A DNA stretch of 34,330 nucleotides from Negativicutes bacterium (GTDB lineage: Bacteria > Bacillota > Negativicutes > Sporomusales > JAOACF01): the NCBI GenBank assembly GCA_026417995.1, contig JAOACF010000012.1, positions 1-34,330 of the forward strand. Direction: 5' to 3'. The position numbers and the translations under genes are program-made. This document shows, one piece after another, positions 5,652-14,096 of this stretch. Position 1 is the stretch's first letter; the number at the start of each line of letters is the position of its first letter. The notes beneath the pieces are model-generated. The model did not search any database. It was not told the origin of the DNA and worked only from the letters and a program-made list of their open reading frames with translations.

Positions 5652-6834
5652 ACTCGCAATATATAAGCCTGGCAAACCGTTTTCGCTGCCTGAACGCTTC
5701 TGCTTCTGCCGCAGACTGGGCATGAAGCGCAAGCTCAACCATGTGCCCCTGACTGCGCAGCGCTCCGGCAGCCGCAATGGCCGCATTAAGCATCCCCTCC
5801 CGCCAGGCCACATAAATCCCTCGACTGTCACCAACAGTTTTCAGGCCTTGCCGTTCCATGGCCAGGAGCAGCCGTTCGATCCCCAGCGCGAAACCGGTAG
5901 CCGGACAATCCATGCCAAAAAAGGCCAGCATCCGGTCATACCGCCCGCCGCCGCAGACCGGGAAACCCAATCCTGGCGTATATCCCTCGAAAACCATGCC
6001 GGTATAGTAATCAAAATCACGGATGAGTCCCAGGTCAAAGTTAACGTACTCGCTGACGCCGTAACTCTCCAGCAGGCAGTAAATCTCGGACAAATTGTCC
6101 AGCGCCCGCCGGCTCACTGTGTTATTCACCCGTGTATAAGCCTGTTTCAGTATCTCCCGTTTGCCGTGAAGCACCGGAATATCCCTCAGCAGTTGCTGCG
6201 ATGCGGCGCATAAGCGGCTGGCAGCCACCATCTCGCTTAATCCCACCAAATCCCGTGATACCATGCACGTTTTTAACTGTTGACGCTCGGTTGCTCCCAG
6301 TTCATATTCGTCCATAATACCATTAATAAATTCAACCTGGCCCAAACTGATCTGAAATTGTTTTAATCCCGCGTCAAGCATGGCTTCGGCCGCCAGCGCT
6401 ATAATCTCCGCGTCGGCGCCCGCTCCCGGACTGCCCATCAGTTCGACGCCGGCCTGATAAAACTCACATTGTCTGCCCGCCTGTGCCTGCTCGTAGCGAA
6501 ACACATTGGTCAGGTAAAACAGCCGCAGCGGCCATTCTTCCTGTGTGAGACGGGTCGCCGCCACCCGCGCAATCGGCGCTGTCATATCCGGCCGCAGCGC
6601 CAAGATGCGGTTATTTTTATCGAGAAACTTGAACATGTTATGCTGAATGTCGCCGCCTACGCCTGTCGTCAAGGCGTCAAGATATTCAAAAGTTGGCGTT
6701 ACAACTTCATCATAACCCCAGCGTGCGAAAAGGCCGGCGATCGTTGTTTCCACTTCACGTTTGCGCCTGGCATCTCGGGGCAAAAAGTCACGTGTGCCAT
6801 AGGGTATCTGGGGCGCAAAATTCTGTCGGCTCAT
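5650..6834 (-). CDS. hisZ: HisZ, ATP phosphoribosyltransferase regulatory subunit
   Basis: HisZ is a histidyl-tRNA-synthetase-like protein without charging activity. It forms a hetero-octamer with short HisG and confers activity and histidine feedback. The 394-residue chain starts MSRQNFAPQIPYGTRDFLP. Class II synthetase-type motifs are visible, including LALRPDMTAPIARVAATR (motif 2 region, about residues 77-94) and CGGGRYDRML near 310. HisZ is favoured over HisS because the chain is shorter and the ATP/aminoacylation motifs are degenerate. It lies 6 bp after yerC, in one operon, and its partner hisG heads the operon on the other side of the hydroxyacid dehydrogenase. Confidence 0.93.
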   Translation of the reverse strand: MSRQNFAPQIPYGTRDFLPRDARRKREVETTIAGLFARWGYDEVVTPTFEYLDALTTGVGGDIQHNMFKFLDKNNRILALRPDMTAPIARVAATRLTQEEWPLRLFYLTNVFRYEQAQAGRQCEFYQAGVELMGSPGAGADAEIIALAAEAMLDAGLKQFQISLGQVEFINGIMDEYELGATERQQLKTCMVSRDLVGLSEMVAASRLCAASQQLLRDIPVLHGKREILKQAYTRVNNTVSRRALDNLSEIYCLLESYGVSEYVNFDLGLIRDFDYYTGMVFEGYTPGLGFPVCGGGRYDRMLAFFGMDCPATGFALGIERLLLAMERQGLKTVGDSRGIYVAWREGMLNAAIAAAGALRSQGHMVELALHAQSAAEAEAFRQRKRFARLIYCE

Positions 6835-7355: not shown

Positions 7356-7509
7356 TTTTTCATCAAGAGTTGGCTGAGGGACTGGCCCGATGAAGCCGCG
7401 GCAACCATCGCTTTGCGAAACGGTGCCAATTCCTGCAGGATTACCATCCTGGCAGATGAAGAACGGCTGAAACTAGTGAAAAAGCCTCTTCGTTCTGCGA
7501 AGAGGCTTT
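7356..7509 (+). ncRNA. SAM-I (S-box) riboswitch with terminator expression platform
   Basis: The aptamer spans about 7356-7463. P1 forms between TTCATC at the 5' side and GATGAA at the 3' side. The S-box core GAGGGACTGGCCCGATGAAG (7377-7396) and GGCAACC follow, with GGTGCCAATTCC further on. The expression platform is a perfect 12-bp terminator stem (7481-7492 with 7498-7509) followed by TTTT. AGAACG (7460-7465), part of the P1 3' side, can pair with CGTTCT (7491-7496) as an antiterminator. The design is therefore a classical OFF switch: bound SAM frees the terminator and shuts off metNIQ. Confidence 0.96.
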
Positions 7510-8596: not shown

Positions 8597-9242
8597 GTCC
8601 CTGCTGGAAACCATCTACATGGTGGCAATTTCGGCGCTTATTGCCACGCTGCTTGGAATTCCCCTCGGCGTTATACTTATAACCACCGGTAAGGGCCACA
8701 TCCTGGAAAACATTCCCCTCAATCGCACATTGGGCTCTATCGTCAACGCCTGCCGTTCCACACCGTTTATTATTCTGATGGTTGCGATCATTCCTTTTAC
8801 CCGCATGATCGCCGGCACCTCCATTGGCACCAATGCGGCAATAGTGCCGCTGAGCATTGCCGCGATTCCCTTTGTTGGCCGTATCGTTGAAACGGCGCTG
8901 CGTGAAGTTGACTACGGCTTGATTGAAGCCGCTCAGGCGATGGGGGCTTCACCGCGCGAAATTATAACTAAAGTATTAATCCCCGAAGCCATGCCTGGCG
9001 TTGCCGCCGGTTTGACCATTACGGTCATCAATCTGATCGGGCATTCGGCTATGGCCGGCGCTATCGGCGGCGGCGGACTCGGCGATTTAGCCATCCGTTA
9101 CGGTTATCAGCGTTTCCGGGCCGATATCATGCTTGCCACCGTTTTAATCCTCATCGCCTTAGTGCAAATTGTCCAGTCCTGCGGCGACCATATAGCAAAA
9201 AGACTAAATAAAAAACAAATAGGAGGAAGCTCTCATGCGTAA
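8565..9242 (+). CDS. metI: MetI, methionine ABC importer permease
   Basis: MetI is the membrane permease of the MetNIQ importer. The ATG at 8565 is preferred over an in-frame TTG at 8559 because GAGGTGA sits 6 nt before it; this gives 225 residues. About five transmembrane helices are visible. The EAA coupling loop that docks on MetN reads EAAQAMGASPREIITKVLIPEAMPG (given here only as the family landmark near residues 125-150). It overlaps the end of metN by 32 nt and metQ by 8 nt. Confidence 0.95.
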   Translation: MSPEILALLAESLLETIYMVAISALIATLLGIPLGVILITTGKGHILENIPLNRTLGSIVNACRSTPFIILMVAIIPFTRMIAGTSIGTNAAIVPLSIAAIPFVGRIVETALREVDYGLIEAAQAMGASPREIITKVLIPEAMPGVAAGLTITVINLIGHSAMAGAIGGGGLGDLAIRYGYQRFRADIMLATVLILIALVQIVQSCGDHIAKRLNKKQIGGSSHA

Positions 9243-10053
9243 TCTTAACAAATCCATTGCCATCCTTTTGGTGCTGGTATTCTCCGTCGCCTTGCTCGGC
9301 GGCTGCAGCAGCAAGCAAAGCGCCGGAGACGCAGCGAAGCCGATCAAGGTAGGCGTCACCGCCGGCCCACATGCTGAAGTGTTCGAGGTAGTAAAAAAGG
9401 TGGCTGAAAAGGACGGCCTAAAAATTCAAATTGTCGAATTCAACGATTATATCCAGCCCAACGTTGCGCTCAATCAGGGCGATATTGACGTCAACAGCTA
9501 TCAGCACCAGCCTTACCTCGACAACATGGTAAAAGACCGCAAATATGAAATAGTCTCTATCGCCAAAACGGTAATCTTTCCCATGGGGCTATACTCCAAA
9601 AAGATTAAAAGTGTTAACGAACTCAAAAACGGCGCAACCGTTGCCATTCCCAACGACCCCACTAATGGCGGCAGAGGGCTGCTGCTTTTGGAAAAACAAG
9701 GCCTGATCAAACTAAAAGAAGGCGCAGGCCTCAAAGCTGCGGTCACGGATATTGTGGCAAACCCCAAAAACATTAAGATTAAGGAACTGGACGCCGCCCA
9801 AATCCCCCGTTCGCTTGACGATGTCGATTTGGCCGCCATTAACACCAACTTCGCCATGACCGCCGGACTTGTACCCACAAAGGACGCCATTGCGCTCGAA
9901 GACGGCAACTCCCCTTACGCCAATGTCATTGCCGTTCGCACGAAAGACAAGGATAACCCGGTCTTCCAAAAACTGGTCAAAGCCTATCAGTCGGAAGAAG
10001 TTAAAAAGTTCGTCGCCGAACACTTTAAAGGCTCGGTCATTGCCGCCTGGTAG
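9235..10053 (+). CDS. metQ: MetQ, methionine-binding lipoprotein
   Basis: MetQ is the substrate-binding lipoprotein (NlpA family) of the methionine importer. The signal peptide ends in a lipobox LGGC with the lipidated Cys at residue 24. The mature domain begins IKVGVTAGPHAEVFEVVKKVA, with YQHQPYLDN near residues 87-95, typical of MetQ. It has 272 residues, normal length. The AGGAGG site lies inside the end of metI and the ORF overlaps metI by 8 bp. Regulation is through the SAM riboswitch. Some family members bind D- or formyl-methionine; the sequence does not decide this. Confidence 0.95.
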   Translation: MRNLNKSIAILLVLVFSVALLGGCSSKQSAGDAAKPIKVGVTAGPHAEVFEVVKKVAEKDGLKIQIVEFNDYIQPNVALNQGDIDVNSYQHQPYLDNMVKDRKYEIVSIAKTVIFPMGLYSKKIKSVNELKNGATVAIPNDPTNGGRGLLLLEKQGLIKLKEGAGLKAAVTDIVANPKNIKIKELDAAQIPRSLDDVDLAAINTNFAMTAGLVPTKDAIALEDGNSPYANVIAVRTKDKDNPVFQKLVKAYQSEEVKKFVAEHFKGSVIAAW

Positions 10054-12330: not shown

Positions 12331-12357
12331 ACCATTTGCCCATCCTGGGCATACAAT
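12331..12357 (+). promoter_or_regulatory. Candidate sporulation-type (sigma-E/K-like) promoter
   Basis: CATACAAT (12350-12357) matches the mother-cell sigma-E/sigma-K -10 element. An AC pair (12331-12332) lies 17 nt upstream of it, the sigma-K -35 arrangement. No convincing sigma-A promoter was seen in this interval. The start would fall near 12363, about 30 nt before the AGGAGG of the FGCRP-repeat gene. These sigma consensus sites are short, so this is suggestive only. Confidence 0.4.
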
Positions 12358-12405
12358 GCAATAGGTAACATAACTACTCAAACTTTATTATTAGGAGGAA
12401 TGCCT

Positions 12406-12630
12406 ATGAAGTTTCATAAACGCGCCAAATGGGAGTTGCCGGAAATTGAAGAATGGGAAGAAATTGAACGCGCCGAGGATGATGAGCGGCAGTTTATCAT
12501 TATCGGCGGCGGTTTCGGCTGCCGTCCCCGCTTTTTCGGCTGCCGCCCCCACTTCTTCGGCTGCCGCCCCCGCTTTTTCGGCTGTCGCCCCTTTTTTTTC
12601 TGTCTGCCGCGCCCCTGCTACCCCATCTAG
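12406..12630 (+). CDS. Small Cys/Arg/Phe-rich tandem-repeat protein, function unknown
   Basis: I do not recognise this gene. The 74-residue frame starts at ATG 12406, 7 nt after a strong GGAGG; an ATG at 12400 is too close to that site. Three zones are visible: a basic N terminus, a strongly acidic stretch with Glu/Asp around residues 12-26, and four tandem copies of Phe-Gly-Cys-Arg-Pro-X-Phe (residues 37-64). The tail holds two further cysteines (CLPRPC). There is no signal peptide. It stands alone between two operons with its own ribosome site and terminator, which supports a real gene. Spore coat or metal/haem binding are possibilities only. An antiparallel Ala-rich frame is an artefact of the repeats. 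Confidence 0.72.
   Translation: MKFHKRAKWELPEIEEWEEIERAEDDERQFIIIGGGFGCRPRFFGCRPHFFGCRPRFFGCRPFFFCLPRPCYPI
12514..12597 (+). repeat. Four tandem 21-bp repeats
   Basis: Four consecutive 21-nt units (12514, 12535, 12556, 12577) encode FGCRPRF, FGCRPHF, FGCRPRF and FGCRPFF. Changes between copies are mostly in third positions or at the sixth residue, so the peptide pattern is kept under selection or the expansion is recent. Copy 4 contains a run of eight Ts. Confidence 0.9.
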
Positions 12631-12645
12631 CATACCAAAAATTTA

Positions 12646-12675
12646 CCCCCTGCAGTTTACTGCAAGGGGGTTTTT
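12646..12675. terminator. Bidirectional terminator between the FGCRP gene and nuoN
   Basis: CCCCCTGCAG (12646-12655) pairs with CTGCA-GGGGG (12660-12670, one bulged A) around a TTTA loop and is followed by T5. On the minus strand the stem is followed by TAAATTTTT, so it can also end the nuo transcript. Confidence 0.9.
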
Positions 12676-12677
12676 CG

Positions 12678-14096
12678 TCACATCCCAAAAAACGATTTAG
12701 CGGCCGCCAACGACAGATCACTCAATACTGCCGGATAGACGCCGAGCACCACCGTCACTGCCAGCGCGGCCATAACGGCCAGACGCATGCCGCTCTCAAC
12801 CGCTATGGGCGCCGGATCTTTCGGTTCGTCCCGCCAGATGACCAAAGCCACCCGCAAATAATAGTATACTGAAATCATGGACATTACAAAGCCGATAAAC
12901 GCCGGCCAGTAAATTCCCTGATCCATGATCGCCGAAAACAGCAGGAATTTGCCGACAAAGCCGGCCATAGGTGGAATGCCCGCCAGCGAGAGCAGACAAA
13001 CGGTCATTACTGATGCCAATAGCGGCTGGCGCTGCCAAAGGCCGCCGAACACAGCAATCTCATCCGAGCCGGTTGCTCTCTCCACGGCGATGACCACGGC
13101 AAAAGCGCCTACGTTAGCTACAGCGTAAATCATGCTGTAAAACAGGACGCCATTAACTCCCGCTGGGTCTGCCGCCATAAGGCCGACTAGGATATAACCG
13201 GCCTGCGCAATTGACGAGTAGGCAAGCATCCGCTTGATGCCGGTCTGCGGGATGGCGACAAGGTTGCCGATAATCATGGTAATAGCGGCAAGAACCGCAA
13301 TAATCCCCAACCAATTATCCGGGGCGACAGGAGTGCCGCCCAAGAAAACTCGGAGCATGGCGGCAAACCCGGCTGCTTTCGATGCCACGGCCAAAAAGGC
13401 CGTCACCGGCGTCGGGGCGCCTTCATAGATATCAGGCGACCACATATGGAAAGGCACGGCGGCGATTTTAAAACCAAAGCCCGCCACCAGCATTACCGCG
13501 CCCAACAGCAGTACCGGGCTGGCAACGCTCACCGGCGGCATTTTGGCAAAAAGCGTGGTCCCGGCTGCCCCGTAAACTAAGCTCATGCCATACAGAATGA
13601 CGGCTGAGGACAACGCGCCCAAGATGAGATATTTCAGGCCGGCTTCCGCTGACTTGCCGCTGGTCAGGTTATAGGCTACGAGAATATAGAAGCTGATTGT
13701 CATTGTTTCCAAAGAGACGTAGAGGGTGATGAGATCGCCGGCAGAAGCCATGCCCATCATGCCGAGCAGCGCGAAGACCATCAGGACATAAAATTCATTG
13801 CAGTTGCCGGTAAAGTCTTCAACATAGCTCTTGCCGGCAAACACTACCAAAATGGCGGCAATGATAAAGACCTGCTTCATGAATACCGCGTAATCATCCA
13901 GAATCCAGGTGCCGCTGAAACCGCCGCTGTTTATGCCATATTGCGTGAAGGTAATAAGCAATAGTACCAGCAGGCCGGCAAGAGTGGCGTGCCCTAACCC
14001 CCGGCGGGCATCCTTGCCGGTAACAAGCGACAGGATTAACAGAACTGAACCGAACAGCGCCGTGGCGATTTCAGTGGATAGCAAATTAAAATTCAT
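12678..14096 (-). CDS. nuoN: NuoN, complex I antiporter-like subunit
   Basis: NuoN is one of three Mrp-antiporter-like proton channels in the membrane arm of complex I. It has 472 residues and about 14 helices. The functional charged residues are in place: Glu130 in VSLETMTISFY (TM5), Lys210 in GFGFKIAAVPFH (TM7) and the TM8 Lys in ASKAAGFA. It is the last gene of the nuo operon and overlaps nuoM by 4 bp. Confidence 0.95.
   Translation of the reverse strand: MNFNLLSTEIATALFGSVLLILSLVTGKDARRGLGHATLAGLLVLLLITFTQYGINSGGFSGTWILDDYAVFMKQVFIIAAILVVFAGKSYVEDFTGNCNEFYVLMVFALLGMMGMASAGDLITLYVSLETMTISFYILVAYNLTSGKSAEAGLKYLILGALSSAVILYGMSLVYGAAGTTLFAKMPPVSVASPVLLLGAVMLVAGFGFKIAAVPFHMWSPDIYEGAPTPVTAFLAVASKAAGFAAMLRVFLGGTPVAPDNWLGIIAVLAAITMIIGNLVAIPQTGIKRMLAYSSIAQAGYILVGLMAADPAGVNGVLFYSMIYAVANVGAFAVVIAVERATGSDEIAVFGGLWQRQPLLASVMTVCLLSLAGIPPMAGFVGKFLLFSAIMDQGIYWPAFIGFVMSMISVYYYLRVALVIWRDEPKDPAPIAVESGMRLAVMAALAVTVVLGVYPAVLSDLSLAAAKSFFGM

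Follow-up and report, generated by a model that had tools for sequence, protein, structure and literature searches.

A 74-residue repeat protein encoded in the window studied here is probably the precursor in a RiPP-type system that is timed by sigma-K, uses a radical SAM/SPASM enzyme and likely yields a spore-layer product. The window is an entire contig of 34,330 bases (G000:C22); the genome it comes from is in 236 contigs and incomplete (89%). We propose that in late sporulation the mother cell, via sigma-K, would make the precursors (that of the window and another on contig C166) together with one enzyme, whose N-terminal RiPP recognition element (RRE) would grip the leader W-x-x-P-E-I while its radical SAM/SPASM part would modify the Cys-x-Pro-Arg repeats. 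The modification would most likely consist of Cys thioether cross-links, and the products would most likely join a spore layer. More tentatively, and a little short of an even chance, this would be a lineage-wide system of spore-forming Negativicutes: a single RRE/radical SAM/SPASM enzyme would cross-link dispersed Cys-x-Pro-Arg proteins in trans under sigma-K timing, giving a thioether-linked, reduction-proof spore layer.

Research on RiPPs has mostly concerned their action as antibiotics or signals. The peptide maturase described here, a radical SAM enzyme, follows sporulation across a class; it is nearly always single-copy, with several candidate substrates each time, and has a conserved sporulation promoter. 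If true, the proposal extends radical SAM peptide chemistry to a structural purpose, identifies constituents of the spore layers of outer-membrane-bearing spore formers, which are poorly known, and offers an enzyme with naturally repetitive substrates; cultured Pelosinus and Sporomusa would allow a direct test. Each part is of a known kind. As far as we found, what is new is their combination, the sigma-K timing, the use of one enzyme for dispersed repeat proteins and the link with sporulation throughout the lineage; the open literature searched (subscription papers being outside its scope) gave no account of radical SAM enzymes with the spore coat or of RiPPs with Sporomusa.

The repeat protein and its family

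The preliminary description of this DNA had reported a 74-residue frame with its start and a strong AGGAGG, four 7-residue Cys-Arg-Pro-Phe units, a terminator of its own and a -10 element with an AC 17 nt ahead, all of which are present (Table 1). The four units follow one another at an exact spacing of 21 nt, and more C-x-P units (CLPR, CYP) continue after them as far as the stop codon. The terminator stem has a folding energy of -18.9 kcal/mol (z -4.5, no shuffle being equally good); on the opposite strand a terminator is also called there, for nuoN. The gene is flanked by a divergently pointing amino-acid transporter gene and the end of nuoN. A conserved neighbourhood with either of these is absent from all fetched family loci, so the position of the gene gives no clue. 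ORFs in other frames across the repeats (12391-12721) were regarded as by-products of the repeats. Elsewhere in the window, a SAM riboswitch (RF00162, 92 bits) at 7357-7462 on the plus strand precedes a gene for a MetN-like ABC transporter.

Table 1. Features of the repeat-protein gene in the window, and the partner enzyme on contig C166 of the same genome
Feature	Position	Strand	Remark
74-aa precursor-like protein MKFHKRAKWELPEIEEWEEIERAEDDERQFIIIGGGFGCRPRFFGCRPHFFGCRPRFFGCRPFFFCLPRPCYPI	12406-12630	+	ATG 12406, stop 12628-12630
Shine-Dalgarno AGGAGG	12393-12398	+	starts 13 nt ahead of ATG
Sigma-K-type promoter	12331-12358	+	AC 12331-12332, 17-nt spacer, CATACAATG 12350-12358
Leader motif W-x-x-P-E-I-x-x-W, residues 9-17, candidate RRE-binding motif	12430-12456	+	
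Acidic linker	12457-12492	+	ends in D-E-R-Q
Core, four 21-nt units encoding FGCRP(R/H/F)F	12514-12597	+	first unit at 12514
Intrinsic terminator	12645-12675	+	stem-loop 12645-12671 followed by T's
Radical SAM/SPASM enzyme, own genome	C166:14204-15433		operon with family member

Compared singly with Pfam and NCBIfam, the window protein matched no family, and the peptide family as a whole gave no significant match in Pfam, NCBIfam or the PDB. A search of 381 genomes of the same class returned relatives with E-values as low as 2e-15. They share an architecture in which a leader, W-[E/D]-x-P-E-[I/M]-x-x-W, leads into an acidic stretch, often closed by D-E/D-R-Q, and then into a Cys-x-Pro-Arg repeat; W9, P12 and W17 are invariant in alignment A1, whose rows were picked partly by the leader motif. 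In 85 distinct family proteins, Pro stands two residues after 793 of the 827 core Cys (96%), with an aromatic residue (F, W, Y) at +1 in 68% and Arg at +3 in 67%. Core Cys are mostly spaced by 5 or 6, Cys content across the family is 10%, and Cys and Pro are the sole near-invariant residues of the core. The relatives are short, with a conserved leader and a variable or repetitive core, as RiPP precursors are.

The family profile matched 55 of the 381 genomes, usually 1-7 times and at most 10 times per genome, which refutes the earlier view of the protein as an orphan without a family. A search for homologues in related genomes had been named as a check at that time; relatives with a conserved frame occur in tens of genomes. 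A variable repeat number had also been foreseen, and near-identical copies from the Pelosinus group indeed have 13 and 14 C-x-P units. When all GTDB species were scanned, the single peptide gave no confirmed relative and the alignment 20 confirmed loci, the named ones among them from Pelosinus, Sporomusa, Lucifera and MAGs of Selenomonadales/Sporomusaceae, with a few titled Bacillota MAG only. The family spans the spore-forming Negativicutes and occurs almost nowhere else. Tens of genomes hold homologues that agree in frame, leader and Cys-x-Pro-Arg repeats, and the promoter element described below lies upstream of most of them; the 74-residue gene is therefore not a chance ORF.

The promoter element and the genes behind it

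The -10 element of the window gene, CATACAAT at 12350-12357, follows its AC at 17 nt in an exact match to the pattern. The preliminary description had assigned it to the mother-cell sigma-E/K type; this holds, with sigma-K as the best choice owing to the AC at -35, which is the -35 of sigma-K promoters (PMC3789822). Exact CATATTATGTA lies upstream of 50 of the 83 relatives, with 0 expected from shuffles, and an AC stands exactly 17 nt before CATA..AT in 48 of the 59 relatives that have CATA..AT at a suitable distance. The family promoter thus carries the AC -35, the 16-17 nt spacing and the CATA..AT -10 of the sigma-K regulon. Upstream of spoIVA, CATATTATGTA was found in 0 of 18 readable regions.

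The genome of the window carries both spoIVA and a sigK gene, and a second AC-N17-CATACAATG, its -10 identical to that of the window, lies about 20 nt ahead of sigK. The promoter search of this one genome gave 11 matches against 5 in the reversed-pattern control, so that single matches are no proof alone. Over five genomes, AC-N17-CATAYYATGTA occurs at 28 sites and its reversed control at 3. Family members lie behind these sites, as do genes for small Cys-rich proteins, a DUF2935 protein and a ferritin-like protein.

The sigK gene itself (G000:C26, about 6108-6600; L141:1462-1950, 1943-2554) aligns with TIGR02846 only from position 8 to 145 of 227. The ORF after it, on the opposite strand, is similar to the C-terminus of a large serine recombinase; by sequence, sigK of this genome appears to hold a skin-like element. 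The genes found behind AC-N17-CATATTATGTA (L145-L172, L231-L241) make up a candidate sigma-K regulon that includes a DUF2935 protein of the window's own genome (C159) as well as ferritin-like, small Cys-containing (L163, L171) and Asp/His/Lys-rich (L157) proteins.

The ferritin-like gene, which shares the promoter in another genome, and the high Cys content of the family would both suit a spore metal-binding or redox-storage protein with the Cys as ligands. We consider this a most improbable reading: the CxxC pairs of usual metal sites are absent, nearly all core Cys are held in C-x-P at the spacing given above, and the family is linked with a RiPP-type enzyme.

The partner enzyme and its predicted recognition domain

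In each of the five genomes (5/5), one homologous protein of about 410 residues lies behind the searched promoter. It has Pfam Radical_SAM and SPASM domains, and its CxxxCxxC, GGEP and SPASM cysteines are invariant. On contig C166 of the window's genome, a second family member lies 8 nt downstream of the enzyme, in an operon behind AC-N17-CATATTATGTA. Among 28 enzyme loci, a Cys-x-Pro repeat ORF comes after the enzyme in 21 and just before it in 2 more, while CATA..AT lies at most 120 nt from the enzyme start in 26, with exact AC-N17 in 18. All 21 ORFs after the enzyme, which were found without using the leader motif, contain W-x-x-P-x-[I/M/L/V], and in many operon-encoded relatives the motif ends in Met. 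Operon and co-occurrence are those of a dedicated maturase; the window gene is not adjacent to the enzyme, which would therefore act on this orphan copy in trans.

Compared with NCBIfam, the enzyme matched no peptide-maturase equivalog above cut-off, and none of the curated maturase or precursor models for sactipeptides and ranthipeptides scored above theirs. The closest PDB folds of the whole enzyme are SkfB, SuiB and CteB, and the closest PDB entries by profile are SkfB, CteB and SuiB. Only one further, distant enzyme (3.6e-63) was found among 399 genomes drawn across the phylum. In G486, outside the class, the enzyme (L246:9442-10701) has two Cys-x-Pro (CDP, CSP) repeat ORFs just before it (L246:8723-9031, 9060-9299), and their leader differs from the family leader. 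That a distant homologous enzyme stands beside Cys-x-Pro ORFs with another leader suggests that the enzyme targets the C-x-P core.

We modelled the N-terminal 86 residues of the enzyme with a 25-member alignment as input (pLDDT 90.8). In the PDB the best matches were the leader-bound RREs TbiB1 and TfuB1 (TM up to 0.70), followed by the RRE-bearing LynD, CteB, SuiB and PbtF; Foldseek E-values for this domain taken alone are modest, the best being 1.4e-3, but the matches are mutually consistent. The Pfam PqqD match of this domain reaches only 0.1. The enzyme N-terminus is thus predicted to fold like a RiPP recognition element. Discrete lasso RREs bind [Y/W]xxPx[L/V/I/F/A], and in paeninodin-like Bacillota leaders the first residue is typically W (PMC13381572); the window leader W9-E-L-P12-E-I14 (WELPEI) fits this motif exactly. 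The RRE fold and the leader motif were found independently and agree. Unlike the lasso systems, with which it shares the B1-type RRE fold and the leader motif, the present system has a radical SAM/SPASM enzyme and a repeat core; lasso-type machinery was rejected, the B2 protease and C cyclase being absent in the two enzyme neighbourhoods examined.

The sactipeptide/ranthipeptide pairs SkfA-SkfB and CteA-CteB are alike in combining an RRE, radical SAM and SPASM or twitch maturase with short precursors made of a leader and a Cys-bearing core, and the solved structures closest to the enzyme include SkfB and CteB. They differ in that here several genome-scattered precursors with repetitive C-x-P-R cores occur per enzyme, the promoter is of sigma-K type, the spread is that of a sporulation gene and no exporter is seen beside the operon. 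The near-invariant Cys and the similarity to SkfB and CteB suggest Cys-to-carbon thioether bonds as in sactipeptides and ranthipeptides. Provided that a modification occurs, such thioethers would be our first choice at about an even chance, since Cys and Pro alone are near-invariant in the core and since SkfB and CteB form Cys thioethers (PMC8326336, in part general knowledge). As an alternative, a ring may join aromatic and Arg side chains, which the aromatic-Pro-Arg order would suit.

With SkfB as the nearest solved maturase, the product might be a secreted antimicrobial or cannibalism RiPP like the sporulation killing factor. We find this very unlikely: neither exporter, leader peptidase or other protease, nor immunity gene stands beside the operon in the two enzyme neighbourhoods examined, the copies are scattered and number up to 10, the promoter is a late mother-cell one, and the family is nearly universal among the spore formers of the class. 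A RiPP for development or the spore surface, as we prefer, has a counterpart in the SapB-type developmental RiPPs of Streptomyces, which serve these ends and not killing; SapB is a lanthipeptide surfactant, its enzyme and precursor unrelated to those described here. The preliminary description had placed the protein in a spore-former setting, which stands given its near-restriction to spore formers, and had offered, as a guess, a spore-coat cross-linking or metal-binding role, overlooking the radical SAM/SPASM partner with its RRE. With this partner, a post-translationally modified, RiPP-type protein becomes likelier than a coat protein that merely forms disulphides or binds metal.

Spread with sporulation genes

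The sporulation gene spoIVA (TIGR02836) is present in 52 of the 381 class genomes. The peptide family occurs together with it in 47 genomes of the 381 (Fisher 7e-46), and the enzyme is found in 51, nearly always as one copy, 48 of these genomes being spoIVA-positive (Fisher 2e-52); the co-occurrence of peptide, enzyme and spoIVA is partly phylogenetic. A family match without spoIVA is seen in 8 genomes, of which 2 are incomplete and 6 are marginal cases from family f28. These weak f28 matches (E 3.6e-4 to 0.01) were regarded as chance, because the f28 genomes have neither spoIVA nor the enzyme. Among the four spoIVA-positive genomes that lack the enzyme, three lack the peptide too, a joint loss with p 0.0018. 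Conversely, in three enzyme-bearing genomes (G091, G094, G315) the profile found no peptide and none was seen beside the enzyme; the substrates of these enzymes may have diverged.

The sigma-K-type promoter, the restriction to spore formers and the orphan position of the window gene would also be expected of an unmodified, disulphide-linked Cys-rich coat or exosporium protein under sigma-K control, the enzyme modifying only its operon-encoded relative, and Cys-rich coat proteins are common. This explanation is unlikely in our judgement, though it deserves some weight: the orphan copies have the leader motif and C-x-P core of the operon copies, and they disappear jointly with the enzyme. As a putative RiPP-type precursor, the window protein still resembles the coat and exosporium proteins of the sigma-K regulon in C. 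difficile and B. subtilis in its AC / CATATTAT-type promoter and its near-restriction to spore formers, and is unlike them in belonging to a family without Pfam or NCBIfam match that is tied to a peptide maturase.

Upstream of spoIVA, many species (L210-L229) share a stretch of conserved sequence about 70 nt before the gene; it contains another strong Shine-Dalgarno-like site and an ATG (AAGGGAGGGATG) and is possibly a leader ORF or a control element.
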